In this document: positions 462 through 20,278 of the stretch, in pieces | How the letters are laid out: each line of letters starts with the position of its first letter | Numbering within the stretch: the stretch's first letter is position 1 | Source of the DNA: an uncultured Mailhella sp. | Lineage (GTDB): Bacteria; Desulfobacterota; Desulfovibrionia; Desulfovibrionales; Desulfovibrionaceae | Direction of reading: 5' to 3' | DNA: 39,451 nt | Assembly (NCBI RefSeq): GCF_947631555.1 | Contig: NZ_CANRLT010000016.1 | Span: forward strand, 1-39,451 | The notes under the pieces: model-generated | The model's database searches: none | Told to the model about the DNA's origin: nothing | Seen by the model: the letters and a program-made list of their open reading frames with translations, nothing else | Position numbers and translations under genes: made by a program

Positions 462-2324
462 CTAGAGCAGACCGCGTTTTTTCAGCTCTATTTCCAGACA
501 GGCCAGGGCCGCGGGAGTGACGCCGGAAATGCGTCCGGCCTGCCCCAGCGTCAGGGGCTTCACTTCATTCAGCTTTTCCTGAATCTCGCGGGAAAGTCCG
601 GCAACGCCGTCATAGTCCATATCCGCGGGCAGGCGGACAGTCTCCTGACGTGCGGCGCGGCGGACCAGATCATCCTGAAGTTCGAGGTAGCCGGCGTACC
701 TGAGTACGATTTCGGTTTCCTGCACGATGTCGTCGTGGGCGGTTTCCAGCTCGGGGAGGAAAACCGAGAGCCGGCGCAGGCCAAGCTGCGGGCGGCGGCC
801 CAGATCGGCCAGGGTGACGGCCTGAGAGGGGCAGGGTTCGCCCAGAGCCGTGAAAGCGGCGGCAGTGGCGGCGTCCGGGGTGAGGCGCGTGTTCCTGAGC
901 TTGTCCATGAGTGAGCGCAGGGCCTCCTGCCTGCCGCAGAAGTGTTCCCACTGTTCATCTCCGACCAGTCCCCGTTCCCGTCCGTGGGGCGTAAGGCGGG
1001 CGTCGGCGTTGTCCTCGCGCAGGAGCAGACGGTATTCGGCGCGGGACGTGAACATGCGGAACGGCTCGTTCGTGCCCTTGGTCACCAGTTCATCGGCCAG
1101 TACGGCCATATAGCATTCGCTCCGTGCGGGGAGGAAGGGCGGGCGCTCTTCCAGCTTTGCGGCGATGTTCAGCGCTGCCCACAGTCCCTGGGCGGCGGCT
1201 TCCTCGTAGCCGGAAGTGCCGTTGATCTGCCCGGCCAGCCAGAGTCCGTCCACGCGCCGCGTCTCAAAGGTGGGGCGAAGCTGGATGGGGTTGACATAGT
1301 CGTATTCGATGGCGTAGCCGGGGCGCACGATCTCGGCGTGTTCCAGTCCCCGGATGGAAGCCACCATTTTTTCCTGAATGTCCAGAGGCAGGCTCGTGGA
1401 GATGCCGTTGGCGTAATATTCCCTGCGATCCAGACCTTCCGGCTCGATGAAGACGTGATGCCGGTCGCGGTCGGGGAAACGGGCTACCTTGTCTTCGACG
1501 GAAGGGCAGTAGCGTGCCCCTACGCCGGTGATGACGCCGGTGAACAGCGGGGAGCGGCTGAGTCCGGATCGGATGATTTCGTGCGTCTTTTCGCTGGTCC
1601 AGCTGATGTAGCAGGGGATCTGCGGAAGCACGGGGCCGGGTCCGCTGAAGCTGAAGCCCGTGGGCGGATTGTCCCCGTACTGGGCTTCCAGAGCGGCGAA
1701 GTCTATGGTGCTGCCCTTGAGCCGCGGGGTGGTTCCGGTCTTCAGGCGTCCCACGCGCAGGCCCAGGGCGCGCAGCGAGTCCGAGAGCTGCCCGGCGGCG
1801 TCATCGCCGAAGCGTCCGGCAGGGTAGTGCGTCAACCCGATATGTACCAGCCCGCAGAGAAACGTTCCCGTGGTAAGCAGGACGTGAGGGGCCGCAAATT
1901 CCTTGCCCAGACGCGTACGCACGCCCAGCACACGGCCGCCCTCCGCAACAATTTCCGTCACCATGTCCTGCCAGACGCTGACGCGCTCCTGAGCGAAGAG
2001 GTCGCGCTTGACCGCGGCGAGGTAGGTATCGCGATCCATCTGGGCGCGGCGGGCGCGCACGGCCGGACCCTTGCTGGCGTTGAGGATGCGGAACTGTATG
2101 CCGGCTTCGTCGGCCCATTTGCCCATGCAGCCGCCGAGGGCGTCTATCTCTCGAACCAGATGCCCCTTGGCCAGCCCTCCGATGGCGGGATTGCAGGAGA
2201 GATGCCCGATGCGGTCCACGTTGCTGGTAATCACCAGAACGTTGTGCCCCATACGTGCCAGGGCCATAGCCGCTTCACAGCCGGCATGGCCGGCACCGAC
2301 AACGATGCAGGAATACATAGACAT
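462..2324 (-). CDS. mnmG: tRNA uridine-5-carboxymethylaminomethyl modification enzyme MnmG (GidA)
   Basis: MnmG is the FAD-dependent partner of MnmE; together they install the cmnm5 group on the wobble uridine of several tRNAs. The 620-aa length is normal for the family. Seen in the sequence: an N-terminal dinucleotide-binding motif GAGHAGCEAA (residues ~11-20), the family block NPAIGGLAKGHLVREID (~46-62), RARRAQMDRD (~91-100), and a C-terminal GYEEAAAQG block. The gene is the last protein gene of the minus-strand block, 98 nt after rpoD and ahead of the tRNAs. An alternative start two codons in (ATG at 2318) is equally plausible, because neither ATG has a clear ribosome-binding site. This suggests dependence on upstream translation or a weak start. 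Confidence 0.97.
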   Translation of the reverse strand: MSMYSCIVVGAGHAGCEAAMALARMGHNVLVITSNVDRIGHLSCNPAIGGLAKGHLVREIDALGGCMGKWADEAGIQFRILNASKGPAVRARRAQMDRDTYLAAVKRDLFAQERVSVWQDMVTEIVAEGGRVLGVRTRLGKEFAAPHVLLTTGTFLCGLVHIGLTHYPAGRFGDDAAGQLSDSLRALGLRVGRLKTGTTPRLKGSTIDFAALEAQYGDNPPTGFSFSGPGPVLPQIPCYISWTSEKTHEIIRSGLSRSPLFTGVITGVGARYCPSVEDKVARFPDRDRHHVFIEPEGLDRREYYANGISTSLPLDIQEKMVASIRGLEHAEIVRPGYAIEYDYVNPIQLRPTFETRRVDGLWLAGQINGTSGYEEAAAQGLWAALNIAAKLEERPPFLPARSECYMAVLADELVTKGTNEPFRMFTSRAEYRLLLREDNADARLTPHGRERGLVGDEQWEHFCGRQEALRSLMDKLRNTRLTPDAATAAAFTALGEPCPSQAVTLADLGRRPQLGLRRLSVFLPELETAHDDIVQETEIVLRYAGYLELQDDLVRRAARQETVRLPADMDYDGVAGLSREIQEKLNEVKPLTLGQAGRISGVTPAALACLEIELKKRGLL

Positions 2325-2376
2325 GGGGAAGCAGGATTGAAGGTGAAGGCACGGCGCCGTCCAGCCGGATACCGGC

Positions 2377-2410
2377 GCACGTCCGGCGTCTCAGGGGACA
2401 TCGGACGTGC
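2377..2410 (-). other. intercistronic hairpin between rpoD and mnmG
   Basis: The 9-nt arms GCACGTCCG (2377-2385) and CGGACGTGC (2402-2410) are perfectly complementary around a 16-nt loop. No U-tract follows on the minus strand, so it is not a convincing intrinsic terminator. It could slow transcription or be an mRNA processing or stability element at the end of the rpoD message. Confidence 0.5.
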
Positions 2411-2422
2411 TGCCGGAGGGTG

Positions 2423-4231
2423 TCAGTTTTCGTAGAAGGAACGCAGGGTCTGACTGCGCACAGGATGGCGCAGCTTGCGCAGAGCCTTGGCCTCGATCTG
2501 GCGGATGCGTTCACGGGTGACGTTGAACAGCTTGCCCACTTCCTCGAGGGTGTGGTCGGACTTTTCGCCGATGCCGAAGCGCTTGCGCAGCACCTGCTCT
2601 TCGCGGGGGGTAAGGTCGGCGAGCACGGAGGCTATCTGCTCGGATAGCTTGGTGTTCACCACTTCTTCGGCGGGAGCCACGGCCTTCTTGTCCTCGATGA
2701 AATCTCCGAGACTGGAATCCTCTTCATCCCCAATGGGCGTCTCAAGGGAAATCGGTTCCTTGGCGATCTTGAGCACCTTCTTCACCTTGTCCACGGGGTA
2801 GTCCATGCGTTCGGCGATCTCTTCGGGCGTGGGATCGCGGCCAAGCTCCTGCACCAGATAGCGCGAGGTGCGGATGAGCTTGTTGATGGTTTCGATCATG
2901 TGTACGGGGATGCGTATGGTGCGGGCCTGATCCGCGATGGCGCGGGTGATGGCCTGGCGTATCCACCAGGTGGCGTAGGTGGAGAACTTGTAGCCCCGCT
3001 GGTACTCGAATTTGTCCACGGCCTTCATGAGTCCGATATTGCCTTCCTGAATGAGATCGAGGAACTGAAGCCCGCGGTTGGTGTATTTCTTGGCAATGCT
3101 CACCACGAGGCGCAGGTTGGAGCGGATAAGCTCCTGCTTGGCGCGCATGGAGGCCACCATGCCGCGGCGGATGCGCCAGAGCACTTCCTCGAGGTCGTCC
3201 ACATCGTGGCAGCATTTCTCCCGCAGTACCTGAAGGCTCTCGACCTTGCCGACAATGAGTTCCTTGTAGGAGAACATCTTGTCCACGCTCATGTCGATCT
3301 CGGCGGCCACTTCCTGCATGGTCCTGGTGCGGTTGTCCAGCTCCTCGAACAGAGCCAGAAGTTCCTCCTGCGACTTGCCCGTGGTCTCCACATAGGCGTC
3401 GAGTTCGCGCTGATAGTTGCGCATCTGGCGCACATAGTCCTCAACGGTTTCCACAATGCGGTCGATGAGAGTCTTTTCGAGCTTGATCTCGCGCAGGCGG
3501 GCCACCACCTCTTCCTTGTACTGGACGATTTCCTTCTGCGTGGCGGCCACACGGCGTTCCAGCGTGCAGCAGGCGTCGAGCTTCTGGTAGATTCTGTGCT
3601 TCTTCTTGTAAATGGCCTTGATCTCGTCCAGCAGCAGAATGACGCGCTGCCGCTGGTTTATCTCGTCATCGGTGGGGTCGTCCTCCTCGATGGTCTTGAC
3701 CACATCCTTGAGCTTGATGCGGTTCTGCTTGAGATCCTCACCCACGTTGATGAGTTCTTCCACGGCCACGGGGACTTCCACCAGCGCGTAGAGCACATCC
3801 TGCTCGCCCGTCTCAATCTTTTTGGCGATGACGACTTCCCCATCGCGGTCCAGGAGCGGAACCGCACCCATCTCCCGCAGGTACATGCGTACGGGGTCGG
3901 TGTTGCGGGTCGCGAAGTCACCGCTGTCATCGGAGCTGAGATCAACGGAGAAGTCAAGGGACGTCTCCACTTCGCCGTCAAAGACCATGTCCACGGGATC
4001 GTTTTCCGTGTCGGCATGGTTCACGGCGATGGACTTGCCTTCCTTTTCCGTGTCCACGATAGCGATATCCATCTGGTCGAACATCGACATGATTTCTTCA
4101 AAATTTTCCGGAGGGGTCATCAGTTCCGGGGGCACGGATTTGCTGACTTCCTCGAAGGTGAGGTAGCCTGCGGACTTGCCCTTGGCAATCAGCGTCTTGA
4201 ACTGCTGCATTTCTTTGAGATTATTGGTCAC
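2423..4231 (-). CDS. rpoD: RNA polymerase primary sigma factor RpoD (sigma-70)
   Basis: This is the housekeeping sigma factor, which directs RNA polymerase to -10/-35 promoters. From a GTG start at 4231 it is 602 aa. That start is preceded by a GGGAGG Shine-Dalgarno with 4 nt spacing and overlaps the dnaG 3' end by 11 nt. The open frame continues upstream, but that part reads dnaG out of frame. Domains: N-terminal region 1.1 (~1-80), region 1.2 ([12 protein letters not shown], ~111-122), a long non-conserved insert, region 2 with [21 protein letters not shown] and [17 protein letters not shown], region 3, and region 4.2 with [20 protein letters not shown]. The dnaG-rpoD order is the classic macromolecular-synthesis arrangement. 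Confidence 0.98.
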
Positions 4232-5930
4232 TACGCCTCCCTCGCGCTTCCAGAAGTGCGCGCAAATATTCCCTTTGGGTATCCTGATCGGCCGTGCCCT
4301 GGCGGAGGGCGGCCACCACGGATGCCCTGTGTGATGTCGTCTGCAGGTCGTCCAGCATTCGCCGGATAGCGTTAAGTTCGCCGTCCTCGTTGTCCAGAGG
4401 GGGAGCATCCGTTCCCCGGCAGCGGATCCAGAAATTTTTTTCTCCCGGCTCCAGTTCATCGAAGGCCATGTCCGAGTTGTACAGTGCGATCTTCTTCCAG
4501 AGCTTGAGCGCCCAGGGGGCGGACAGCGCGAGATCGGCCCCGCAGGCCTTGAGGTCGGGCAGGCGGTGCGGGTAGCGGACGGCAAAGGTCATGATTTCGC
4601 GATCGCGTGTGACGCCCTTTGGCAGCAGGGGCCGGCGTACCGCGGGCTTCGTCTCCCGCCGCTGAAGCACGGTGCTGCGCAGTTCTGCTTCGGAAAGCCC
4701 AAGGCCGGTGGCCAGTTCCGCAGCGAAACGGTGAAACAGTTCGGGCATGTCCACCTGGCCGAGGAAGCGCCGCGTCCATTCCACAGCGTCCCTTGGGGCC
4801 ATGCCGCGCAGAACCGAAATGCAGAAGGCCAGCCCGTCCTGCGCATGGGCGCGCAGGTCTTCCACCGCTTCGCGCCCGTAGGTGCGGAGCATGCTGTCGA
4901 TGTCGTTGTCGTCCGGGAACAGGATGACTTTGCAGGACAGTCCCCGGCTGAGCAGCATCTCGCAGGAACGGAAGGCAGCCTTGCGGCCGGGGGCATCGCC
5001 GTCGAACATGAGTTCCATCCGGGTGGTGAAACCGGAGAGCCGCTTGATCTGGTCGGGGGTGAGTGCGGTTCCCAGAACTCCTGCGGCCTGCGTATACCCG
5101 TACTGATGCAGGGTGATGACATCCATGTAGCCTTCCGTGAGGATGACGTTTTTTTTCACGGCGATGGACGGCCGCGCCTGAAACAGGCCGAAGAGGTGTT
5201 CGCCCTTTTTGTAGATGGGGGAATCGCTGCTGTTGATGTATTTGGCGTCGTCTTCCCTGGCCAGCGCGGGGATGATGCGCCCGCCGAAGGCGATGGCCTG
5301 CCCCGAAAGATTGCGGATGGGAAACATGAGCCGGTTGCGGAAGCGGTCGAAGGTGCGGCCTGAGCCGCTCTTCGACTGGAGTCCGCAGGCGGCCGCCGCG
5401 TCCAGGCTGTATCCGGCGCGGCGCAGTGAGTCGCCCAGATCCTGCCAGAGTTCGGGCGTCCAGCCAAGGCTGAACGTCTCCTGGAGTTCGGGGGAAATGC
5501 CGCGCTCTTCAATGTAGTCGCGGCAGACACGGGCGTCCTGTCTGCGCAGATTGCTGCGGAAATGTGCGGCCGCAAGCTCGTGCATACGGAGCATGTCACG
5601 CTTCTCTGAGCGTTCCTGACGCGCCCTGGGGTCGGGGCGGTAAGACTCGAGCTGTACGCCCGCTTCCTCAGCCAGAGCCGCAAGAGTTTCCTTGAAGTCC
5701 AGTCCGTTGAGGCGGCCGTAGAAGTCGAAGATGTCGCCGGAGGCCTGGCAGCCGAAGCAGTAGAACGTCCCCTGTTCCTCGTTGATGGAGAAGGACGGCT
5801 TGGTCTCCTGATGGAAGGGGCAGGGCGCCACGAGGCGGGAACCCACAGGGCGCAGTTCCACATAGCGTCTGGCCAGATCTGCCAGACTGATGCGGGACTT
5901 GATCGCCTGTATGACGTCGGTATTCCTCAT
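4221..5930 (-). CDS. dnaG: DNA primase DnaG
   Basis: DnaG synthesises RNA primers at the replication fork together with the DnaB helicase. The 569-aa protein has an N-terminal CHC2 zinc-binding domain (CPFH at ~38-41 and CFGC at ~58-61). The catalytic core follows, and the TOPRIM part shows [10 protein letters not shown] (~265) and [10 protein letters not shown] (~305). The C-terminal DnaB-interacting region is less conserved. The gene starts 24 nt after the mutS2 stop, and its last codons overlap the rpoD start, which indicates translational coupling. No strong Shine-Dalgarno precedes the ATG (GCACGAGA), so expression is probably modest. Confidence 0.97.
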
Positions 5931-5954
5931 TCTCGTGCTGCCTGTTGTTTTGTG

Positions 5955-8744
5955 TCAGCGGAAAAAAACCTGGGTCATGCCGTCGCCGCCCTGATCTTCG
6001 GGTGCCGTGCCGTAGGAGGCCACGCCCGGAAAGGTGCGCAGCATTTCATGCACGGCCTTGCGCAGTGCGCCCGTGCCCCGGCCGTGGACGATTTCCACGC
6101 CGTCCGTTCCCGTGAGCAGGGAGCGGTCGAGAAACTGTTCGAGTTCCGCCAGCGCCTCGTCCGCGCGCTTTCCTCTCAGATCGAGGCGCAGGAAGGGCAC
6201 AGTCCGGGAAAGTTTCGTGGTGACGCTGGACCTGGGGGCAGGGGAAGCGCTTACGGGTTCAAGATCTTCAAGCTTCGCCCACATGGTCACGCCGTTGAGG
6301 TCTATTTTGGCCTTGCCGTTCCTTGCGTCCACTTCGCGGATTACGGCCTTCTGATTCCACAGCCGGTGCATTACCTCGCCGCCTGGCGTGAATTGCGAGG
6401 CGTCCGGAGCCGGGCGCTCCTCCGCGTCTTCCTGCGATGCAAGGCTGACCCGCAGTCTGGCCATGGCCCGCTGCGTCTGCCGCGCCGTGGCCTTGCCGCT
6501 CCTGTATTCGCGCATCAGTTCCTGAGACATGCGGCGCACTTCTTCGTCCAGACGCTGACGTTCCTTTTCCAGTTTTTCCTGAAGAGCCGCACGCCGGTCA
6601 CGAAGGCGGCGTTCCTCGTCCTTCATGCGGGCGAGTTCCTCTTCCCGCTGGCGTGCCAGCGCGTTGAGCCGATCCATGACGGCACCGGCATCGTCGCCGT
6701 CCATGAGCAGATAGTGCTCGGCCCGGCGCAGAACGGATTCCGGCAGACCGTGTTCGCGGGCCACGTCCAGAGCCTGGCTTGCGCCCACCTGATCATAGGC
6801 CAGATGGAAGAGCGGCTTTTTGGTCTTCGGATCGAAGAGTACGGAGGCGGCGCGCACGCCCTCATGGGTAAGCGCGTAGCTCTTCAGCGCGGGAAAATGG
6901 GTGGCGGTCACGGTGAACGCGCCCTTTTCCAGAAGTCCGTCCAGCACGGCCTGAGCCAGCGCCGCGCCCTGGGAGGGATCCGTGCCCGCGCCGAACTCAT
7001 CCAGCAGCACCAGGGAATGGGCGTCGAGTTCGTCCCAGATGGCGGAAAGGCGGCGTATCTGGCCGGTGAACGTGGAGACGTGATCGTCCAGGCTCTGCTC
7101 GTCGCCGATGAAGGCGCGGACATTGTTCCAGAAGGGCAGCGTTGCTCCCCTGTCCACGGGAGCGGGCAGACCGGAGAGTGTCATCAGGGTGACGAGACCG
7201 AGGGTCTTGAGGGCCACGGTCTTGCCGCCTGCGTTGCCGCCGCTGATGACGAGGACGCGGTCGCCCTCGCGGAGCAGCAGGTCGGAAGGCTCGATGCGCC
7301 GCGGTCCGGTGTAGGACGGATCCTTGGCGTGGCGGGCTGATTCCAGCACCAGAAGAGGATGGCGCGCACCTGGCAGGTGGAGATCTGCGCCTTCTTCCAG
7401 CGGTACGCAGCGGCCGTCCAGTGCATCCCCCAGAAGACATTTGGCGCGGCCAAGGTCGAGCCGCACGAGGAGATTCCACGCAGCACGGAGCAAGGGCATT
7501 TCCTGAAGCATGAGTCCGGCGATCATGCGCAGAACCTTGCGTTCCTCCTCACGCTCCTTCTGCTTCAGCTCCTGAAGCCGGTTGTTCTGCTCCACCAGAA
7601 ACAGCGGCTCGAAATAGAGCGTCTCGCCGGTGTGCGAATAGTCGTGAACGACGCCCTGGATGCGGCCCTTGAAGTTGGCCTTGAGCGGCAGGACGTAGCG
7701 GTCGGACGACAGGGTCATGTAGTCGTCCTGGAGATAGTGCGCGATGTTGTACTTCTCCGCAAATTCTTTCACCCGGCGCAGGCAGTTCTGATGGATGCTG
7801 CGCAGTTCGCCACGCACGAGGAGCAGTCCCGGCGAGCTTTCGTCCCTGAGCGATCCGTCATCGCTCACGCAGCGGTTCAGGGCGGAAAGCACCAGCTCCG
7901 GCATGGGCAGAGAGCAGGCGAGTGCGTCCAGAAGCGGCCGCCGTGACGCTCCGGCGTGTATGCTTTCCGCAGCGCGGCGGGCCTGGCCAAGCGTCTCCCG
8001 GAGAGCCCAGAGCGCGTCCAGGTCGGGGGCTGGGTCGGGACGCCTTTCCACATAGTCCAGAAGCCCGGAAATATCGGGAAAGGAGGCGAGGGAAAAGTCG
8101 CCTTCCGCCATCCAGGAATGCTGTTCGTCGTAGAGGAGCTGACTTTCGCGCACGGCGGATACGCCGTCCAGAGGCCGCAGACCAAGAGCGGCTTCCCGTC
8201 CGGCCTCGGAAAGGCAGAACGAGGAGAGCTGTTCCAGAACGCGGGGGAATTCGAGGGCGCGAAGTGTGCGTTCGTCCATGAATAAATCGAAGCAGTGGGA
8301 CTGCTGGAAGCGGGCTTTCACGGCTGCGCTTACGGCCTTGCCGTCTACACGGCCCTTGCATTCGGCCATGATGGCGCTGATGGCCTTGCCCATGTTTTTC
8401 ATGCCGCCATCCAAGAGCGGTGCAACCGCGCGTTCCACCGCCTCGGCCAGCTCCGCTTCACTGAGGGGGGCAGGCAGATAGGCCCTGAGAACCTCTGCTT
8501 CAGCGGCTTCCTTTTCGGCGAGGTCGGAACGCCCGGCGGCGGTATATTGTTCGATGGAGTCCTGACGCTGTTTGAGTTCGTGCATGATGACAGACAGATA
8601 CTCGTCCTCGGACAGCGGATGCATAAGCTCCACCTGTTTGTTCTTTGCGGCTGTTTTCAGAAGACGCAGCGTTCCGAGGCGAACCTGCTGCCTGGACTTG
8701 TAGGCTTCCAGATAGTCCCTGTCGATCTGTTCTGCGATGCTCAT
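5955..8744 (-). CDS. mutS2: fused GatB/YqeY-domain protein - MutS2 endonuclease
   Basis: One uninterrupted 929-aa frame holds two proteins that are usually separate. Residues 1-~148 are a complete GatB/YqeY domain, the tRNA-amidotransferase-tail-like family (starts MSIAEQIDRDYLEAYKSRQQ; ends VSAAVKARFQQ). After a short linker, SHCFDLF, a complete MutS2 begins at residue 156 (MDERTLRALEF) and runs 774 aa, the normal length. MutS2 features: Walker A GGNAGGKT (~500), Walker B LVLLDEFGAGTDP (~577), a Glu/Arg-rich coiled coil (~680-740) and a C-terminal Smr nuclease domain with LDLRG (~850) and HGRGTG (~886). The start at 8744 has the good site GGAAGGAAA. No ribosome-binding site precedes the internal Met at 8279, which favours a real fusion. 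A lost stop codon in this strain or a sequence error remains possible. MutS2 acts on recombination intermediates or collided ribosomes; YqeY function is unclear. Confidence 0.9.
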   Translation of the reverse strand: MSIAEQIDRDYLEAYKSRQQVRLGTLRLLKTAAKNKQVELMHPLSEDEYLSVIMHELKQRQDSIEQYTAAGRSDLAEKEAAEAEVLRAYLPAPLSEAELAEAVERAVAPLLDGGMKNMGKAISAIMAECKGRVDGKAVSAAVKARFQQSHCFDLFMDERTLRALEFPRVLEQLSSFCLSEAGREAALGLRPLDGVSAVRESQLLYDEQHSWMAEGDFSLASFPDISGLLDYVERRPDPAPDLDALWALRETLGQARRAAESIHAGASRRPLLDALACSLPMPELVLSALNRCVSDDGSLRDESSPGLLLVRGELRSIHQNCLRRVKEFAEKYNIAHYLQDDYMTLSSDRYVLPLKANFKGRIQGVVHDYSHTGETLYFEPLFLVEQNNRLQELKQKEREEERKVLRMIAGLMLQEMPLLRAAWNLLVRLDLGRAKCLLGDALDGRCVPLEEGADLHLPGARHPLLVLESARHAKDPSYTGPRRIEPSDLLLREGDRVLVISGGNAGGKTVALKTLGLVTLMTLSGLPAPVDRGATLPFWNNVRAFIGDEQSLDDHVSTFTGQIRRLSAIWDELDAHSLVLLDEFGAGTDPSQGAALAQAVLDGLLEKGAFTVTATHFPALKSYALTHEGVRAASVLFDPKTKKPLFHLAYDQVGASQALDVAREHGLPESVLRRAEHYLLMDGDDAGAVMDRLNALARQREEELARMKDEERRLRDRRAALQEKLEKERQRLDEEVRRMSQELMREYRSGKATARQTQRAMARLRVSLASQEDAEERPAPDASQFTPGGEVMHRLWNQKAVIREVDARNGKAKIDLNGVTMWAKLEDLEPVSASPAPRSSVTTKLSRTVPFLRLDLRGKRADEALAELEQFLDRSLLTGTDGVEIVHGRGTGALRKAVHEMLRTFPGVASYGTAPEDQGGDGMTQVFFR

Positions 8745-8818
8745 GGCGGTCTTTCCTTCCCGTGGGCGTCCCGAAAGGCGGGATGGCCTTCGGACAGCCT
8801 CTTTTGACAATGGCAGAG

Positions 8819-8860
8819 GAGCCGGAAACCGCTCCCGTCGGGAGATACGATTTCCGGCTC
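8819..8860 (-). other. two-tier hairpin in the rpsU - yqeY/mutS2 intergenic region
   Basis: A 10-bp outer stem, GAGCCGGAAA (8819-8828) with TTTCCGGCTC (8851-8860), encloses a second perfect stem CTCCC/GGGAG around 8832-8844. No U-run follows on the minus strand. It sits between rpsU and the rest of the macromolecular-synthesis cluster, where partial termination or RNase processing would let the ribosomal protein be made in excess. The structure is read from sequence; the role is inferred. Confidence 0.6.
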
Positions 8861-8910
8861 TCGAACCGGCTTGCCCGGTCAGCGCGACGCAAACCGCGGC
8901 AAAAACGAGA

Positions 8911-9114
8911 TTATCCCATGTTGACCTTGCGCATTTTCTTGACGAGGCGCTTGCGGGCGGCAGCCTTCTTCTTCTTGCGCATGACGCTGGGCTTTTCGTA
9001 GTGCTGGCGCTTCTTCATTTCGGAGAGCACGCCGGCCTTTTCCACCTGCTTCTTGAAGCGGCGCAGGGCGATGTCGAAATTATAATCGTCTTCGGTGAGA
9101 AAAACTCCGGGCAT
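8911..9114 (-). CDS. rpsU: 30S ribosomal protein S21
   Basis: This small, basic, late-assembling 30S subunit protein is needed for efficient initiation. The 67-aa product begins [20 protein letters not shown] and ends in a Lys/Arg-rich tail, typical of deltaproteobacterial S21. The ATG at 9114 was chosen because AAGGGGGTGA lies 5 nt upstream. A GTG three codons further upstream overlaps that Shine-Dalgarno and is rejected. It is the first gene of the rpsU - mutS2 - dnaG - rpoD series. Confidence 0.97.
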
Positions 9115-9254
9115 GAAAATCACCCCCTTTTCAGCGAATCTTTTTGTTCCGTCCGATCCGCCAGAAAAAGGAATGAACGGAAAGGTAGTTCGGAAGCATG
9201 ACTCCGAACGCCGGACTGACGTCGGAAGAAAGTGGCAAATTAAACTTTTTTGCC

Positions 9255-9290
9255 AAAAAAAGCAAGCCCCTGAACACGGAAGGTTTCAGG
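9255..9290 (-). terminator. candidate terminator after HU / small membrane protein
   Basis: On the minus strand CCTGAA and TTCAGG (9285-9290 and 9269-9274) form a 6-bp stem with a 10-nt loop, followed 7 nt later by seven T (9261-9255). The gap between stem and U-run weakens the call. A second small inverted repeat, TGGCAAA/TTTGCCA at 9233-9255, overlaps the T-run. Confidence 0.35.
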
Positions 9291-9369
9291 AAAAACTGCG
9301 CCCCGTTCTCCCCTCGGGCAGAGGCGGAACGGACGTGAGACGGGCCTCGTGCGTCCAGGCCGCCCGCGG

Positions 9370-9552
9370 TCAATGCTGCTCGTGTTCCGTCTTTTTGGCG
9401 TCCTTGATGGCGCGGGCAAAGACCAGAGTCAGACCGATGGCGAGGACGAGGAGAACCGCGTAGAGTACGCCGAAGAAGATGGCGTAGTCAGGCTGCCACA
9501 ACGGCAGAGTCCACGGGAAGGGACCCTGGCCGTTTTCACCGTGCATGAGCAT
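9370..9552 (-). CDS. small single-pass membrane protein, function unknown
   Basis: A 60-aa product with a polar N-terminus containing HGENGQGPFPW, one strongly hydrophobic segment (~25-46, AIFFGVLYAVLLVLAIGLTLVF) and a charged tail (ARAIKDAKKTEHEQH). This gives one membrane helix with the basic tail probably cytoplasmic. The start is well supported by AAGGAG 5 nt before the ATG. It lies 47 nt downstream of HU on the same strand and is probably co-transcribed with it. I do not recognise a named family. The size and layout are reminiscent of small accessory subunits of membrane complexes, but nothing in the sequence identifies one. Confidence 0.75.
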   Translation of the reverse strand: MLMHGENGQGPFPWTLPLWQPDYAIFFGVLYAVLLVLAIGLTLVFARAIKDAKKTEHEQH

Positions 9553-9599
9553 GAGAACTCCTTGAAACTGAAAGGAAGGCTTGTCCCTGCCTCAGCGGC

Positions 9600-9872
9600 T
9601 CAGTGGACTTTTTTCTTGAGATTGTCGCTGGCTCTGAAGACGATGGTCTTGCTGGCGGGGATAGTAATGGTTTCACCGGTGCGGGGGTTGTGCCCCTTGC
9701 GTTCCTTGCGTTCCTGCACCAGAAGTGAGCCGAAGCCGGGGAAGGAGATTCTGCCTTCGGCAACGAGGGTCTCTTTCATGGCATCGAGCATGGCATTCAG
9801 CACCTGTTCGGCGTTGACCCTGCTGATGGAGCTTTTTTCGGCAATTTTGGCGATAAGTTCCGCTTTCGTCAT
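9600..9872 (-). CDS. hup: HU-family DNA-binding protein
   Basis: This nucleoid-associated protein bends DNA as a dimer. The 90-aa product starts MTKAELIAKIAEK at an ATG preceded by AAGGAG. It has the HU signature around GRISFPGFGSLLVQERKERKGHNPRTGETITIPA (~43-76), including the beta-arm and the conserved Asn-Pro (NPRTGE) that intercalates into DNA. The open frame extends 25 codons upstream, but that part lacks HU similarity and runs into the promoter. It has its own promoter at 9919-9947 and is followed by the 60-aa membrane protein. Confidence 0.96.
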   Translation of the reverse strand: MTKAELIAKIAEKSSISRVNAEQVLNAMLDAMKETLVAEGRISFPGFGSLLVQERKERKGHNPRTGETITIPASKTIVFRASDNLKKKVH

Positions 9873-9918
9873 GAGAAGGCTCCTTTTCTTTGAGCATTGA
9901 GGTGAAACTGACGGCTGT

Positions 9919-9947
9919 ATTAGGCCATGCTTTGATTGCAACGTCAA
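9919..9947 (-). promoter_or_regulatory. candidate promoter of the HU gene
   Basis: On the minus strand TTGACG (9942-9947, 5 of 6 to consensus) is followed after 17 nt by CCTAAT (9919-9924, 4 of 6). The resulting leader of about 40 nt ends in the strong AAGGAG site of the HU gene. It sits directly after the rsmA stop, so HU can be transcribed independently of rsmA/fusA. Confidence 0.5.
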
Positions 9948-9975
9948 GAGGTTCTCTGGTTCCGAAGCATGATTT

Positions 9976-10773
9976 TCAGGAATAGAGAGACCTGGCGAGG
10001 CTGTGGAACAGGGAGACGGCGAGAGTTTCCGGCCGCACGGTGCGGTCTATCCCCAGATGATCGAGGATCTCCGGGGAGAAGCGTTCGGGTTCAGCGTGGC
10101 GCAGGATGTTCTGAAGCTGCTTTCGGCGCTGCTGGAAGCAGATTTTGACGAGACGCGCGAGGTGTTCCGGCTGTTCAGGGCGTTTTTCCCGGGGCAGAGG
10201 CTCGAAAAGTATCACGGAGGAATCGACTTTCGGCGGAGGAGAGAAGGCCGCCGGACCGAGGACGAAGCCTTTCCGGGGGCTTACAAAGCTCTGTATCCAC
10301 ACGCTGAGCGCACCGTAGTCCCTGCTTCCAGGGGTGGCGAGGATGCGGCCGGCGACTTCCTTCTGAACCATGAACACGGCGCGCTCCAGGCGCGGGGTGC
10401 GCCGGACCAGCTCCCACATGAGCGGCGAAGCTATGTTGTAGGGCAGGTTTCCGGCGACCTTCCACGGGCCTTCAAGATTTTCCCACGGGTAGGCGAGGGC
10501 ATCGCCAGGGATCACTTCCAGCCCTGGAAGCGGGAGGGCGGCGTGCTGTCCGGCGTAGTATTCGTCCTTTTCGAGGAGCAGCAGGCGGCTCCACGGGAGA
10601 GGGCGCAGAAGGGCTGTGAGCGCACCGGGTCCGGGGCCGATTTCCAGAACCTGATCGCCATCCCTGACGCCGAGCAGCTCCACAATGCGCCGGACGGCGC
10701 GCTCATCGCGCAGAAAGTGCTGGCCGAGGCTTTTCCTGGCCTTTGCCGGAGGAAAAAGGTGGACTTCGCTCAT
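9976..10773 (-). CDS. rsmA: 16S rRNA dimethyladenosine transferase RsmA (KsgA)
   Basis: RsmA dimethylates the two adjacent adenosines in the 3'-terminal hairpin of 16S rRNA using SAM, a late quality step in 30S assembly. The 265-aa product starts MSEVHLFPPAKARKSLGQHFL; KSLGQHFL is the family N-terminal motif. The SAM-binding loop is EIGPGPGALT (~55-64) and the catalytic motif IV is NLPYNIASPL (~128-137). The C-terminal helical domain is present. The start lies 4 nt after the fusA stop without a clear ribosome-binding site, pointing to translational coupling with the EF-G gene. Confidence 0.95.
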   Translation of the reverse strand: MSEVHLFPPAKARKSLGQHFLRDERAVRRIVELLGVRDGDQVLEIGPGPGALTALLRPLPWSRLLLLEKDEYYAGQHAALPLPGLEVIPGDALAYPWENLEGPWKVAGNLPYNIASPLMWELVRRTPRLERAVFMVQKEVAGRILATPGSRDYGALSVWIQSFVSPRKGFVLGPAAFSPPPKVDSSVILFEPLPREKRPEQPEHLARLVKICFQQRRKQLQNILRHAEPERFSPEILDHLGIDRTVRPETLAVSLFHSLARSLYS

Positions 10774-10777
10774 GCCG

Positions 10778-12823
10778 TCACATGGTGTCGTATTTTTTGA
10801 AGCGCATGGTGAACCCAGCCCGTCCCTGTGTGGCGGATCGCAGTGCCGTGGAGAAGCCGAAGAGTTTGCGCATGGGAGCCATGCCGGAGAAATACCTTCT
10901 TCCGCCGCGTTCTCCCAGCTCTTCGATCTTGCCGCCGCAGTTCTGGAACAGGCTGATGGAGGCGCCGAGGGCCTCTTCCGGGGCGACGATTTCCACGTCC
11001 ATGATGGGTTCCAGCACAACGGCCCTGGCCTGGCTCATGGCTTCACGCACGGCCAGGGAAGCCGCCATGCGGCAGCCTGCGGCGGTGGCTCCGTCCTTTG
11101 CCGCGGCGGTTACGGTGACGGCCACGTCCTGCACGGGGTAGCCGGTCTGCGGGCCGGAAAGAAGACTGTCGTTGATGCCCTGAAGCACTTCGTCAGCCAG
11201 AGCGCGGGGCAGTGCCGTGCGGAGATCCTCCGGATGGGCGAGAGCGTCGCTCAGGCTCACGAGGTTGCCCGTGTCGCGGGGACGCGGGGACACCGTCAGA
11301 GTTATGTCGCCGAAGTGGTGCACCGTGCCGAGATCGCGGTCGAAGACGCCCCGCCCTTCGGCTTCGCGGCGCACGGTCTCGCGGGCCACAACCTGGGGCT
11401 GTCCGGCTCTGGGTGTGATGCCGTATTCGCGTTTCATGCGCTCCAGGATCACGTCAAGGTGCAGTTCGCCCATACCCGAAAGGATGCGGTCGCCGGATTC
11501 CTCGTCCAGGGTAACGCCCAGGGTAGGATCCTCAGCCGCGTAGCGGGCCAGCGCTTCGTCCAGGACCTTGCCTTCGTCGGCGTTGCGCGGTTCCAGAGCT
11601 TCGGAGATCACGGGCTTCACGTCTTCCAGCCGTTCCAGCAGCACGTCCAGGCCGTGCGCCGTGAAGGTGTCGCCCGTGCGCGCCGAACGCAGGCCCAGCA
11701 CGGCCACAATGTCGCCGGAGCAGGCTTCCGCAAGCTGTTCCTGCTGGCCGGCGTCCATGCGGAACATGCGTGAAATGCGCTCGTCCTTCTTCAGCGCGGC
11801 GTTGCGCACAGTGTCACCTTCCTTCAGGCGGCCGGAGTAGAGGCGCATGAGGGCGGTTTTGCGGCCACCGTCCATGATGATCTTGAACACCAGTCCGCAG
11901 AACGGCGCGCCGGGCTGGACATCCACCGTTATTTCCCGGCTGCCGTCCACCGTCGTGCCGCGGGGCGGAGCCGCTTCCAGGGGAGACGGCAGATACCGGC
12001 AGACCGCGTCCAGAACGGGCTGAACGCCGGAATTCTTCAGCGCCGAACCCGCCAGCACGGGGGTGACGGCCCGTTTCAGGGCGGCCCGTTTCAGGGCGGC
12101 GTGGATGTCCTCTTCGGTGAAGGATTCCTCCAGATAGCGTTCCATGAACTCATCGTCGTTCTCGCCCAGCGTTTCCAGGGTGCGTTCGCGCCAGAGTCCG
12201 GCCTGCCGGATCTCATCGCCTTCCAGAGGCAGTTCAGCCACCTCCTGGCCCTGAGAGGACTGGTCAAAGACCAGCTTTTTCATGCGCACGACATCGGCCA
12301 GCGCGTAGAAGTCCGGGCCTTCGCCCAGGGGGATGGTCACGGCTGCGGGCGTGGCGCCAAGGCGTTCGTGCAGGGACTCGAACACGGCAGAGAAATCGGC
12401 CCCCACGCGATCCATCTTATTAATGAAGGCGATCTTGGGGACGCCGAATTCTTCCGACTGCCGCCACACGGTTTCAGACTGCGGCTCCACGCCGCCCACG
12501 GCGCAGAACACGCCCACGGCGCCGTCGAGAACGCGCAGGGAGCGTTCCACCTCGATGGTGAAGTCCACATGGCCGGGGGTGTCGATGAGGTTCAGCGTCC
12601 AGTCCTTCCAGTGGCAGGTGGACGCGGCCGCGGCGATGGTGATGCCGCGTTCCTGCTCTTCGGGCATGAAGTCCATCGTGGCCGTGCCATCGTGGACTTC
12701 GCCCATGCGGTGGATCTTGCGGGTATAGAAAAGAATGCGTTCGCTGAGTGTCGTTTTCCCGGCATCGATGTGGGCGATGATGCCGATGTTGCGGAGGAGG
12801 GCCATGCTTTCGTCAGTCTTCAT
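10778..12823 (-). CDS. fusA: elongation factor G family GTPase, possibly a second paralogue
   Basis: EF-G drives ribosomal translocation and, with RRF, ribosome recycling. The product is 681 aa from the ATG at 12823, which is preceded by AAAGGAA. Seen: G1 AHIDAGKTT, switch I ERGITIAAAASTCHW, G3 DTPGHVDF, G4 NKMD, G5 GSA, then domains II-V ending LRSATQGRAGFTMRFKKYDTM. The context next to rsmA, not in a str operon with rpsL/rpsG/tuf, together with deviations such as TIAAAASTCHW for the common TITSAATTCFW, suggest this is not the main translational EF-G. It could be a recycling-type paralogue, but this cannot be settled from the window. It carries a 15-bp tandem duplication (12071-12100). Confidence 0.93.
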   Translation of the reverse strand: MKTDESMALLRNIGIIAHIDAGKTTLSERILFYTRKIHRMGEVHDGTATMDFMPEEQERGITIAAAASTCHWKDWTLNLIDTPGHVDFTIEVERSLRVLDGAVGVFCAVGGVEPQSETVWRQSEEFGVPKIAFINKMDRVGADFSAVFESLHERLGATPAAVTIPLGEGPDFYALADVVRMKKLVFDQSSQGQEVAELPLEGDEIRQAGLWRERTLETLGENDDEFMERYLEESFTEEDIHAALKRAALKRAVTPVLAGSALKNSGVQPVLDAVCRYLPSPLEAAPPRGTTVDGSREITVDVQPGAPFCGLVFKIIMDGGRKTALMRLYSGRLKEGDTVRNAALKKDERISRMFRMDAGQQEQLAEACSGDIVAVLGLRSARTGDTFTAHGLDVLLERLEDVKPVISEALEPRNADEGKVLDEALARYAAEDPTLGVTLDEESGDRILSGMGELHLDVILERMKREYGITPRAGQPQVVARETVRREAEGRGVFDRDLGTVHHFGDITLTVSPRPRDTGNLVSLSDALAHPEDLRTALPRALADEVLQGINDSLLSGPQTGYPVQDVAVTVTAAAKDGATAAGCRMAASLAVREAMSQARAVVLEPIMDVEIVAPEEALGASISLFQNCGGKIEELGERGGRRYFSGMAPMRKLFGFSTALRSATQGRAGFTMRFKKYDTM
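12071..12100. repeat. perfect 15-bp tandem duplication inside the EF-G gene
   Basis: The unit CCGTTTCAGGGCGGC occurs twice head to tail (12071-12085 and 12086-12100) and duplicates five residues (AALKRAALKR) just before the G5 region. The insertion keeps the frame, and the local length is close to what I remember for canonical EF-G. It may therefore be tolerated or ancestral. Confidence 0.95.
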
Positions 12824-12970
12824 CAAACGTTCCTTTGAGGTTTGCAGTCTTTCCCTTCAGGGGGAAAAGAAGGATTGATAACATGGCGAAGCCTCAGACA
12901 TCCTTGTCCTTACTCCTCCCTCCCTTCGGGGAGAAGCCATCCGCACGCCCCTTGACTGCCGGCTGCGGAG

Positions 12971-13834
12971 TCAGTCGGAAGAAGAGGCCGGCTGTGGATT
13001 GAAACATGCGGAAGTCTCCTGAAAGAGATAGGCGGAACATGCGGAAGACCGGAAAAAGTCAGGGGCCGGGCCGGGCCAGCAGGCTTCCATGCCGGGACCG
13101 AGGATCATGTCCGGGGAGGCGGGCACCTTTGTCTTTTCGTCCGGCACATAGGCGGCGCGCACGCCGGCGGCAGCTTCCGTGAGCAGTTCCGCATCGGGGT
13201 GCAGCCAGCGCAGGCGGGCGGCGAGAGCTTCGGCGTCCGGGCCTGAGGCGTAGAGCGAAAGCAGCCGCGGCGACGGCCGGTCACGCAGCACGGGCAGTCC
13301 GTCTGCGGCGGCTCCGTGCAGCAGGGACTTCTGAGCCGGAGAAAACGTTCCGTCCGCGCCGGGAAAAAGCAGCAGCCGCCCGTCGGAAGAGACTGCGCGC
13401 AGGTCTTCGTAGACATCGGCCAGACGGTCTCCGCCAAGGACGAAGGAATCTTCCAGTCCGGCCAGCTCCATGGCGGTACACAGCGCAGGGGAGAAGGCCT
13501 GCTCCGAGACAACGGCTATGCGCCCGGTACCTGCGGCGAGTGCGGGCACGAGGCATGCCAGAAAACGGGCGGGGGAGGCGTAGCCCGGGCCGGCGCAGGC
13601 CAGCACCCAGGCGGCGGGGCGGAGCGTGTCCGTGTGCCGAAAGCCGCTGCGGAGCGAACAGGACGAGCGCGCAGAGACGCCGTCCTGACCGGGCCAGCGG
13701 TGGAAGGCGAAGGCCAGGGCCGTCTTGAGCAGGGCGCGCAGTTCCGGCGCGGCGTTCTCGTAGGCGCCGGCGGAGAGCGCGTCTTCTGGACGGCAGGCTT
13801 CCAGCCAGCCGGGCAGTTCGGTGCAGAGTTCCAT
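12971..13834 (-). CDS. conserved hypothetical protein, possibly a degenerate dehydrogenase-like fold
   Basis: The 287-aa product starts MELCTELPGWLEACRP at an ATG preceded by AAGGGGGA. No signal peptide or membrane segment is apparent. The middle (~75-140, PAAWVLACAGPGYASPARFLACLVPALAAGTGRIAVVSE) alternates hydrophobic strands with small-residue turns. It weakly recalls the NAD-binding half of aldehyde or histidinol dehydrogenases, but no catalytic motif is visible and the resemblance may be superficial. It is Ala/Leu/Pro-rich with strong GC bias at third positions, like its neighbours, so it is a resident gene. It is transcribed toward fusA with a 147-nt gap and divergently from ogt. Confidence 0.75.
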   Translation of the reverse strand: MELCTELPGWLEACRPEDALSAGAYENAAPELRALLKTALAFAFHRWPGQDGVSARSSCSLRSGFRHTDTLRPAAWVLACAGPGYASPARFLACLVPALAAGTGRIAVVSEQAFSPALCTAMELAGLEDSFVLGGDRLADVYEDLRAVSSDGRLLLFPGADGTFSPAQKSLLHGAAADGLPVLRDRPSPRLLSLYASGPDAEALAARLRWLHPDAELLTEAAAGVRAAYVPDEKTKVPASPDMILGPGMEACWPGPAPDFFRSSACSAYLFQETSACFNPQPASSSD

Positions 13835-13978
13835 GATGTCCCCCTTTCCTTTCTGGGTACGACGCCCGCGCCGCCTCGTCAATAGCGGATGCCGGTTCGT
13901 CCGGGCATTTTTCCGGCAGGCGCCCTTTCCAGCTACGCACTTTTTTTATAAGAAAGAAAAACGCCAAAGGAGGCCGTC

Positions 13979-14491
13979 ATGCCCCGCCTCGCCATCGTTA
14001 CGCCAGCAGGCAGACTGATTCTGGAAGAACAGGAAGAAGCGCTCACGCGCATAACATATGCGGGCGCCCCTGCCGCGCTTGAAGAGGGCGGGGAGCAAAC
14101 GCCGCTCCTTGCCGAAACCCGGCGTCAGCTCGAGGCCTATTTTTCGGGCCGGCTGCGGGTCTTTGACCTGCCTCTGAGAGCGGAGGGCACAGCCTTCCAG
14201 CAAGCGGTGTGGCGTCAGCTCTGCGCCGTGCCCTTCGGCGGACTGATGACCTACGGCGGCATCGCGCACCGTCTGGGAAGAGCGGGTGCGGCCAGAGCCG
14301 TGGGCATGGCCTGCCACGTCAACCCGATTATGATCGTCGTGCCCTGCCACCGCATTGTGGGTGCGGACGGAAATCTCACAGGCTACGCTCCCGGGCTTGA
14401 GGTCAAGCGCTTTCTCCTCCGGCTGGAAGGCTCGCTTCCTCAGGCGGAAAGACGCCGTGCACAGATGGTGCCGCATCTGGTTTGCCCATGA
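13979..14491 (+). CDS. ogt: methylated-DNA--protein-cysteine methyltransferase
   Basis: This suicide enzyme transfers the methyl group of O6-methylguanine to its own active-site Cys. The 170-aa product shows the DNA-binding helix region FQQAVWRQLCAVPFGGLMTYGGIAHRLGR (~70-100) and the active-site motif VPCHRIVGADGNLTGY (~122-137), with the acceptor Cys in PCHR. The preceding NPIMIV is a variant of the usual NP-PI/L-PV-P context. There is no Ada-type regulatory domain, so it is a stand-alone Ogt/MGMT. The start has an ideal AAAGGAGG site. It heads a plus-strand run of genes divergent from the hypothetical protein at 12971-13834. Confidence 0.95.
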   Translation: MPRLAIVTPAGRLILEEQEEALTRITYAGAPAALEEGGEQTPLLAETRRQLEAYFSGRLRVFDLPLRAEGTAFQQAVWRQLCAVPFGGLMTYGGIAHRLGRAGAARAVGMACHVNPIMIVVPCHRIVGADGNLTGYAPGLEVKRFLLRLEGSLPQAERRRAQMVPHLVCP

Positions 14492-14556
14492 GAAGGGCGG
14501 ACTGACAGGAAAACGCCGTGAGCAGGCGGCCCGGCCCCGCGGCAGGGGAAAACACG

Positions 14557-14585
14557 TTGCGTTTTAGCGGAAACGACTCTATGCT
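14557..14585 (+). promoter_or_regulatory. candidate promoter of ctpA
   Basis: TTGCGT (14557-14562) and TATGCT (14580-14585) are separated by exactly 17 nt and lie 33 nt before the ctpA ATG. Each box matches 4 of 6 consensus bases. The position leaves room for the strong TTGGAGG ribosome-binding site. Confidence 0.4.
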
Positions 14586-14618
14586 TACACGGTTCCATCA
14601 CGCATTGGAGGCGTCCTC

Positions 14619-15908
14619 ATGAAGAAGATTTCTCTGTTGACCGCTGCCGCGCTGGCTCTGGTGTTCTTCCTTGCCGGCGGAGGAGCGATGAAGGCTGTCA
14701 GCGCAGAAGCGGACTACGAGTCCCTGCGCCGTTTCAGCCAGATACTGGACATCGTGGAGCAGCACTACGTCAACGATGTCTCACACAAGGAACTTCTGGA
14801 AGACGCGCTCAAGGGTATGCTCCAGAATCTGGATCCTCATTCCACGCTCATGACGGAGAAGGAATTTCAGGAGATGCAGGAGAATACCAGCGGCGAATTT
14901 TTCGGCGTGGGCGTGGAAATCACCATGGAAAACGGCCAGGTCATGGTCGTCAGCCCCATCGAGGACACGCCGGGCTACAAGGCCGGGCTTCAGGCCGGGG
15001 ACTCCATTCTCGCGGTAGACGGCCAGTACACCATGGAAATGTCCCTTACGGAAGTCGTCTCCCGGATGCGCGGCAAGCGCGGTACCGTGGTAGAACTCAA
15101 GGTTCTGCACAAGAATGGCGCGAAGCCCGTGACCATGAAGATCCGGCGCGATGCCATACCGCTTCTCAGCGTCAAGTCCAGAGAGCTGGAACCGGGCTAT
15201 CACTGGATACGCCTCACCCGCTTCAGCGGGCACACGGCAGAGGAACTTTCCGAAGCTCTGAACAAGGCCCGTGCCGGAAGCGGGCTTAAAGGCATAGTCC
15301 TTGACCTGCGCAACAACCCCGGCGGCCTTCTGGATCAGAGCGTGGAGGTGTCCGACCTCTTCCTGAGCGGCGGCGACATTGTGTCCATGCGCGGCCGCGA
15401 CGCCGCTTCCCGCCGCGTCTTCAAGGCCAGGCCCTCCCAGGACGATGTGACCTGCCCCGTGGTGGTGCTGGTGAACGCCGGAACCGCTTCCGCCTCGGAG
15501 ATTGTAGCCGGGGCGCTGCGTGACCAGAAGCGTGCGCTCATCGTCGGCGAACGGACGTTTGGCAAAGGTTCCGTGCAGAACCTCATCCCTCTGTCCGACG
15601 GTACGGGCCTGAAGCTCACGGTGGCCCGCTACTACACGCCTTCGGGCAAGTCCATTCAGGCGGAAGGTATCGTGCCCGACTTCGAGATTGCCTGGGAGCC
15701 GCCCCGCGAGGAGAAAACGCCGGAACTTTCCCTGCGCGAGAAAGACTTGCGCGGCCATCTGGAACAGAAGGACGGCGGAGATAAGAACGAAAAGAGCGGC
15801 ACGGCCGAGGCCGAGGAAGCAGCCCGGATGCTCGCCCGCGACAATCAGCTCCGTATGGCCCTGCAATTTGCCAAAACCCTGCCCGCGCTCAGAGAACTTA
15901 AAAATTGA
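14619..15908 (+). CDS. ctpA: carboxy-terminal processing protease (S41 family)
   Basis: This periplasmic serine protease with a PDZ domain trims or degrades envelope proteins. The 429-aa product has an N-terminal signal sequence ([21 protein letters not shown], ~2-22) cleaved near VSA-EA. An N-terminal helical part follows, then a PDZ domain (~95-175, [11 protein letters not shown] onward). The S41 core contains the nucleophile Ser region [13 protein letters not shown] (~288) and the general-base Lys in [11 protein letters not shown] (~311-321). The C-terminal ~70 residues are charged and low complexity ([13 protein letters not shown] onward). The start has a GGAGG site. ndk follows 28 nt downstream. 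Confidence 0.96.
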
Positions 15909-15936
15909 CGCCCGCCCGGCGGCATCTGGAGGAACC

Positions 15937-16356
15937 ATGCTGCAGAGAACTCTTTCCATCATAAAACCGGACGCCGTAGCCCGTGGACTTCAGGGGGAGA
16001 TTCTGGCCATGATTCAGGCCTCCGGTCTGCGCATTGCGGCCATGAAAATGCTCCGCCTTACCGAAGCGCAGGCCGGGGCGTTCTATGAGGTGCACCGCGA
16101 ACGTCCCTTTTACGGCGACCTTGTGCGTTACATGACCTCCGGCCCCGTGGTCTGTTCGGTACTGGAAGGCGAGGATGCGGTGGCGGCTTACCGGGCGCTC
16201 ATGGGAAGTACGGATCCGGCCAAAGCCGCGGAAGGCACCATCCGCAGAAAGTATGCCCAGAGTGTGCAGGCCAATGCCGTACACGGTTCGGACGCTCCTG
16301 AGACGGCTGCCCGGGAAATCGCGTTTTTCTTCAGTCAGACGGAGATTGTGGGATGA
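15937..16356 (+). CDS. ndk: nucleoside-diphosphate kinase
   Basis: Ndk transfers the gamma-phosphate from ATP to NDPs through a phospho-His intermediate, balancing NTP and dNTP pools. The 139-aa product starts [17 protein letters not shown], the typical opening block. The active-site motif is [20 protein letters not shown] (~113-132), with the catalytic His in VHGSD. The start has a GGAGG site 5 nt upstream. Its TGA stop overlaps the proC ATG (ATGA), so the two are translationally coupled. Confidence 0.97.
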
Positions 16357-17138
16357 AGACCGTAGGCTGCATCGGCTGCGGAAACATGGGCGGCGGTGTG
16401 CTCCGCGGACTCGCCGCCCGGGGCGGCTGCCGTCTGCTGGGGCATGACCACAGCCGTTCCAAGGTGGACGCACTGGGTGTTGAGTGGGCAGGCAGTCCTT
16501 TGGAACTCGCCCGCCGTGCCGAAGTGATCCTTCTGGCCGTCAAGCCTTATCAGATGGAAGCCATGCTGGAAGAGATCCGGCCTGCGCTGGATGCTTCCAA
16601 AGTCGTGCTTTCGCTGGCCGCGGCCTTTTCGCTGGACAAACTGCGCAAGGGCACAGCCGGCATCTGCCCCGTGGTGCGCGTCATGCCCAATCTGCCGGTT
16701 ATCGTGGGCAGGGGCGTCTTTGCCCTGTGCTTTGACGATCCCGTGCTTTCTGAGGAGCAGCGCGGGGAGCTGCTGAACATGTTCCAGAGCCTGGGCAGGG
16801 CCATCGTGCTTCCGGAAGCTCAGTTCCCCGCCTTCTCTTCGCTGGTGGGCTGCGGGCCGGCCTTCGTCTTCCTGTTCATGGAAGGACTGCTCAACGCCGG
16901 CATCACCATGGGACTGAAGGCTCCTGCCGCCAGAGAGCTGATCGCCGCCATGGTTGAGGGTTCGGCAAAGCTCTGCCTTGAATCCCCGGAGAGCTTTGCC
17001 GACCTGCGCGTCAAGGTATGCTCTCCGGCGGGAACGACCATACGCGGCGTCAATCATCTGGAACGCTGCGCCGTTCCCGGCCATGTGACCGACGCCGTTC
17101 TCGAAGCGCTGAAGCGCGATCAGGAAATGGCGCGGTGA
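16353..17138 (+). CDS. proC: pyrroline-5-carboxylate reductase
   Basis: ProC catalyses the last step of proline synthesis, reducing pyrroline-5-carboxylate with NAD(P)H. The 261-aa product has the N-terminal Rossmann motif [15 protein letters not shown] (~5-19), the substrate-binding block [15 protein letters not shown] (~109-123), and the C-terminal family signature [16 protein letters not shown] (~224-239). It overlaps ndk by 4 nt. rodA follows after 60 nt. Confidence 0.97.
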
Positions 17139-17198
17139 GACGGGCTGCCGCGTCTCATCCCTGCGCAGGCGGAGTGCTTTTCTGCCTGAGGTGCTGCC

Positions 17199-18311: not shown

Positions 18312-18314
18312 GCT

Positions 18315-18335
18315 GTCTCTGCTCAGAGGCTTTTT
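18315..18335 (+). terminator. intrinsic terminator after rodA
   Basis: GTCTCT (18315-18320) pairs with AGAGGC (18325-18330), with one G-T wobble, around a GCTC loop. Five T follow immediately. It starts 4 nt after the rodA stop and separates the rodA unit from the ATP synthase operon. Confidence 0.6.
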
Positions 18336-18604
18336 CCCGCCTTCGGAGTTTGCGCCGCTGTCCCATGTTCTGGCGGGTGTTTTTGCCGGAATGCGAAAAA
18401 AGTTTTATTTTTTTTCGCCGAAAAATCGGAAAAAACGCCGGAGAAAAATTGGAGAAGAGGCCTCCCCTTTCGGGGAAAGGCTGCTGGCGCATTATTATTT
18501 AATCAAATTATTTTATAAGGATATATGTTTTTAAACACGCTTTTTTTCGGGGTTGAAGACTGAAAGGCAGTGTAAAGAGAAAGCCATCCGGCGGGGAAAG
18601 GCTT

Positions 18605-18633
18605 TTGACAAAAGATAGGAAACGGCGTAGGTC
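18605..18633 (+). promoter_or_regulatory. candidate ATP synthase operon promoter in the rodA-atp gap
   Basis: The 418-nt gap 18312-18729 holds no gene. Around 18490-18540 it is very AT-rich, unlike its surroundings. An exact -35 consensus TTGACA lies at 18605-18610; 17 nt further is TAGGTC (18628-18633), a poor -10. A perfect 10-bp palindrome GAATTAATTC follows at 18635-18644. The promoter call therefore rests on the -35 box and position. The palindrome could be an operator. Confidence 0.35.
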
Positions 18634-18695
18634 TGAATTAATTCTAGCCTCAGTATGCCCTACTTGAGGCAGAACAATGAGGATTTGCGATTGCA

Positions 18696-20275: not shown

Positions 20276-20278
20276 GCC

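Follow-up and report, generated by a model that had tools for sequence, protein, structure and literature searches.

YqeY and MutS2 in one open reading frame of an uncultured Mailhella genome: a probable private loss of a stop codon

An uncultured Mailhella sp. encodes YqeY and MutS2 in one open reading frame (ORF) of 929 amino acids. The frame occupies 5955–8744 on the reverse strand of the 39,451-nucleotide stretch of DNA analyzed here (contig NZ_CANRLT010000016.1, hereafter the window), opening with an ATG at 8744 and running without an internal stop to a stop codon ending at 5955. We consider it probable that the yqeY stop was lost in the lineage of this genome, leaving a tolerated fusion of two formerly separate genes. 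The fusion looks less like a conserved new protein than like a single-base change private to this genome, which is probably recent or may be a misread base. The initial annotation of this DNA, which had placed both proteins in a single frame, was right about the ORF, its strand and its coordinates, and both domains are whole.

The YqeY half (residues 1–147; 8304–8744, reverse strand) is defined by its PF09424 match and its identity to relatives. The Pfam domain covers residues 5–145 with 147.4 bits against a cut-off of 27 and spans model positions 2–142/143, and is thus complete. The MutS2 half (Met156–929; 5958–8279, reverse strand) comprises core/lever, clamp, ATPase, SH3/KOW-like and Smr domains, the last with DLR and HGRG motifs. 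Residues 158–927 match the NCBIfam mutS2 equivalog TIGR01069 (697.2 bits, cut-off 400), and Pfam places MutS_V (PF00488) at 499–678 and Smr (PF01713) at 854–929 of the fused ORF, together with a PF20297 match that scores below its own cut-off. The translation of this half also holds GGNAGGKT and DEFGAGTDP, which we take to be the MutS-type ATPase motifs. Identity to the 12 nearest relatives is 77–80% for YqeY and 79–82% for MutS2; because both halves are complete and this close to relatives, the fused ORF is not a chance open frame. A Shine-Dalgarno-like stretch precedes the ATG at 8744 (anti-SD duplex −6.5 kcal/mol), and the frame stays open 5′ of that codon as far as a TTG at 8810. A second MutS-like match elsewhere in the same genome (contig C21; 29% identity over query positions 385–679) is a separate gene, which by inference is probably MutS itself.

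Both halves look constrained on sequence comparison. For the window against the 12 relatives, pN/pS is 0.201–0.273 for yqeY and 0.188–0.233 for mutS2, values that exceed the means for other pairs (0.157 and 0.161) and lie within or at the edge of their ranges (maxima 0.292 and 0.236), with synonymous sites close to saturation and with pairs among the other 12 left out where pS was 0.3 or less (5/66 for yqeY, 3/66 for mutS2). These ratios give no sign that either half has decayed since the fusion. An AlphaFold2 model of the fusion built from 67 rows (mean pLDDT 85.2, pTM 0.60) gives mostly 87–95 for the YqeY part, high values for the MutS2 core and less than 50 for hinge residues 151–154; as predicted, YqeY and MutS2 are kept as two modules with a low-confidence hinge between them.

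What joins the halves is the linker QSHCFDLF (residues 148–155; 8280–8303, reverse strand), made up of the former yqeY end and the spacer. Seven residues had been reported for it; eight are counted between Gln147, where the YqeY query match ends, and Met156. In a codon alignment with the 12 nearest relatives, a TGC codon (Cys151; 8292–8294, reverse strand) sits where their YqeY stop lies: the codon aligning with it without gaps is a stop in ten of the 12 (TGA in nine, TAA in one), and in the remaining two the stop (TGA, TAG) comes one codon sooner. The junction reads CAG CAG TCC CAC TGC TTC GAT TTA TTC ATG in the window and CAG CAG GCC CGC TGA TCT ATG in a typical relative. Our genus search covered 19 genomes including the window's own, 18 of them with a match. 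Among the 18 others, 15 have adjacent yqeY and mutS2, two (G177 and G200) have mutS2 without yqeY, and one (G201) gave no match; in 15/15 genomes with adjacent genes, a stop closes the YqeY frame ahead of mutS2. The statement in the initial annotation that the genes are usually separate is borne out by these 15 genomes. The comparison with close relatives that it proposed, in which a stop codon in the linker was to count against the fusion, found exactly such a stop, and its expectation that the fusion would be informative about a stable physical link is not supported, since all 15 stop YqeY before MutS2. A MutS2 tree places the window as sister to the 12 nearest relatives (support 92/88, under the tool's mark for strong support) on a terminal branch of 0.17. 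Because more distant relatives also have stops, this position makes the stop loss derived, and given the length of the branch it could fall anywhere along it.

The composition of the linker is that of a spacer. The TTA at codon 154 is the only one among 469 leucine codons in nine genes at 462–13882, the fusion included, and TTA makes up 32 of 1247 leucine codons over 23 ORFs of the window, mostly in low-GC3 genes; some gene starts in these counts are approximate. By this usage the linker looks like former spacer that either came to be translated only lately or still is not. A perfect 6-bp inverted repeat, AGCAGT-CCC-ACTGCT, lies over the lost stop (8291–8305, reverse strand), and is not beyond chance. 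Neither a terminator (six terminator-like sites against 4.1 ± 2.4 in shuffles) nor an RNA structure (fold z −0.35) stands out at the junction, and an Rfam scan of 5500–9700 gave no match.

Among the matches listed, no second stop-free fusion was found in the family (288 genomes), the order (247) or the phylum (296), although a diverged, low-scoring fusion could escape such a search. A 107-residue junction query found a match in 264 of the 288 family genomes and in none of the other 24; of the listed rows that clearly span the linker, the window's alone stays in frame with no stop. Three junction matches that are stop-free across the linker (G070, G199, G042) are not fusions: YqeY ends at a stop of its own, and mutS2 lies in a different frame. 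Besides the window, at least 28 rows of a family search (199 genomes) and at least 24 rows of the phylum search span both halves, each with at least one stop; in the order search the window is the only stop-free full-length row among the matches listed. Another 40 loci, picked for their long open frames or unusual match starts (L057–L076 from the family; L077–L096 mostly from the order and phylum searches), were checked singly and yielded no fusion. A YqeY match is present in 38 of them and absent from the stretch examined in L078 and L095, the latter having only 372 nt upstream. At one locus (L068, genome G128, near 738) the YqeY match hits an early stop, with YqeY-like sequence apparently following, as if frame-shifted. 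With no other genome carrying a stop-free fusion among the matches listed, we reject a conserved YqeY-MutS2 fusion family; in the literature searched we also found no published YqeY-MutS2 fusion and no paper naming both proteins.

The junction also bears on how MutS2 would be translated. In the 12 nearest relatives mutS2 begins 2–4 nt past the YqeY stop behind a weak AGG motif with a duplex energy of −3.4 to −3.6 kcal/mol, an arrangement that suggests, from sequence, translational coupling of mutS2 to yqeY. In the window the YqeY stop is gone and AGG is replaced by AGT, a loss that could stem from other causes. As had been noted, the MutS2 methionine (ATG, 8279–8277) has no ribosome-binding site (+0.3 kcal/mol). 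This is less telling than it seems, because separate mutS2 genes have the weak AGG or, as in a more distant relative with separate genes (L018, +0.5 kcal/mol), no Shine-Dalgarno-like stretch at all. The duplex scan is crude, with dnaG in the same operon scoring only −2.8; the value for rpsU (−0.8), which refers to the GTG of its ORF rather than to the probable start ATG beyond it, was left out. With both AGG and stop lost, MutS2, if made, is probably mostly made as a ~100-kDa fusion.

The main alternative to a real stop loss is a wrong or minority-strain base at codon 151 of the assembled consensus, the stop still being present in the organism. We regard this as unlikely, although it deserves serious weight: the fusion is, on the matches listed, a singleton among 631 genomes and one base away from the state of its relatives, the linker is still spacer-like in composition, and the source assembly (2,576,389 bases, 97.63% complete, 0.52% contamination) is in 154 contigs. 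Substitution errors in an assembled consensus are rare, however, and one error does not account for the loss of AGG as well, which is weakly contrary. The 23 ORFs taken as genes in the window are likewise free of internal stops, a weak point given that they are long ORFs by construction. A passage on frameshifts, not stop losses, considers unclustered singletons likely to be recent mutations or sequencing errors (PMC3711429).

For the stop loss that we favor, we propose the following course. The ancestor would have carried closely spaced, adjacent yqeY and mutS2 genes within an rpsU-yqeY-mutS2-dnaG operon, with MutS2 reliant on termination-reinitiation at the yqeY stop. Loss of that stop, most simply by TGA to TGC at 8294–8292, would have allowed translation to continue into mutS2 through a spacer that was by chance in frame and stop-free. 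Reinitiation would presumably have been lost with the stop and, the weak AGG being gone too, most MutS2 would now be made as the ~100-kDa YqeY fusion. YqeY and MutS2 are expected to fold as independent modules, and the KOW and SMR parts are C-terminal in the fusion, far in sequence from the YqeY addition. Because the modules should fold independently and the ribosome-binding parts of MutS2 lie far toward the C-terminus, the fusion is probably tolerated and close to neutral. Its MutS2 part would keep the activity seen in Bacillus subtilis, ATP-driven splitting of collided ribosomes.

The gene order around the fusion is the more durable point and a better lead than the fusion itself. Upstream lies rpsU, for ribosomal protein bS21 (8911–9123, reverse strand; PF01165, 71.5 bits), and downstream dnaG primase (4221–5930, reverse strand; PF08275, PF01807 and Toprim). 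The next ORF downstream (2423–4585, reverse strand), judged from its translation, presumably contains rpoD, for the primary sigma factor, and we take an HU-like protein, ksgA and a fusA-like gene, also named from translations only, to lie in the neighborhood. The rpsU-yqeY spacer (8745–8910, reverse strand) seems to hold a long GC-rich inverted repeat, GAGCCGGAAA ... TTTCCGGCTC, identified by eye and without an Rfam match, which is perhaps a processing or attenuation hairpin. The order rpsU-yqeY-mutS2-dnaG, all on the reverse strand in the window, is widely conserved. Our set of 75 loci, not a random draw, was what remained of 96 once 21 had been dropped (three MutS-like, ten second hits or fragments, and eight named copies of genomes already included). 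Where 800 nt or more are available upstream of mutS2 (68 loci), yqeY is present in 65, rpsU on the same strand in 56 and both in 54; where 800 nt or more are available downstream (also 68 loci), dnaG follows in 65. The genes for YqeY and bS21 are said, in a passage of one source, often to share one operon (PMC12054373). In the same-genus genomes G177 (L016, 1290–1504) and G200 (L032, 1296–1510), rpsU is followed by mutS2 after ~210 nt, with yqeY absent and the order otherwise kept. Neither genome has a yqeY match elsewhere at threshold, G200 being only 69% complete. Loss of yqeY can therefore leave the remaining gene order intact, and on sequence grounds the gene seems dispensable in these two genomes.

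This conserved order speaks for a selected fusion, in which YqeY, with its RNA/tRNA-binding-like fold, would aid ribosome rescue by being tethered to MutS2, normally its partner. The adjacency is old, the phylum rows that span both halves doing so in one frame; yqeY and rpsU commonly precede mutS2 together; and a passage on B. subtilis MutS2 indicates that its SMR domain and bS21, encoded by rpsU, would clash (PMC10897456). We nevertheless find selection improbable, given the lack of a second case among the matches listed, the stop or stops in every other listed row spanning both halves, the absence of yqeY from G177 and G200, and a linker without sign of adaptation. The bolder idea, that bS21 release, YqeY and MutS2-driven splitting form one ribosome-rescue module whose YqeY-MutS2 partnership this genome made into one protein, a "Rosetta stone" for YqeY function, is a long shot. 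Internal initiation at Met156, by which MutS2 would mostly be made separately from a fused frame, is very improbable: Met156 and the conserved start MDERTL are retained, and the gene in L018 likewise does without a Shine-Dalgarno-like stretch, but Met156 has neither such a stretch nor a nearby stop to feed reinitiation.

Elsewhere in the window, six successive ORFs of 176–1485 amino acids (12971–24139, reverse strand) have no Pfam match at E 0.001, and some may not be genes. A forward-strand region at 25020–27906 encodes an MBOAT O-acyltransferase and then an AlgX-like SGNH protein, whose gene has a GC3 of 0.32 against ~0.75 in the rpsU-yqeY-mutS2-dnaG operon, which suggests foreign origin. 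A 1280-residue ORF at 35183–39025 (forward strand) joins radical SAM, 4Fe-4S, FrhB/FdhB and polysaccharide pyruvyl transferase domains in one frame and is possibly itself a fusion.

If the stop-loss fusion is real, YqeY, which is widespread but whose role is unclear, is here naturally tethered to an ATPase of ribosome rescue, and whether the two can function as a single chain becomes readily testable. Being a singleton only one base removed from the usual arrangement, the fusion chiefly illustrates how readily genes that are closely spaced and translationally coupled can merge; stop-loss fusion or one-base error, it is ordinary biology in either case. More lasting is the conserved gene order, in which bS21, a possible competitor of the Smr domain of MutS2, is encoded beside MutS2.

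Residues 1–145 match solved YqeY chains (PF09424; PDB 1ng6, 8xjg, 8xje) as a full-length domain, whereas the window's YqeY has no stop of its own and eight extra codons lead to MutS2. Residues 156–926 match the full length of B. subtilis MutS2 (PDB 7qv3, 8qpp, 8r55), from which the window differs in having a whole YqeY domain in the same frame before the core/lever domain. The B. subtilis protein is described, in parts of one account, as recruited to collided ribosomes by its KOW and SMR domains and as splitting them (PMC10897456). The window's Smr domain has DLR and HGRG in place of the nuclease DxH motif, and the same account ties DLR/HGxG to binding the ribosome and separating its subunits, with no cleavage of mRNA. 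A glutaminyl-tRNA synthetase (GlnRS) with an appended YqeY paralogue is also on record in a passage of PMC3927822; in GlnRS-YqeY, of Deinococcus-Thermus and some others, the domain is C-terminal and the fusion phylum-wide, whereas in the window it is N-terminal and confined to one genome. A further likeness is to the separate yqeY and mutS2 genes of other Desulfovibrionaceae, which share the order and in some cases the frame, with one stop between them where the window reads straight through.
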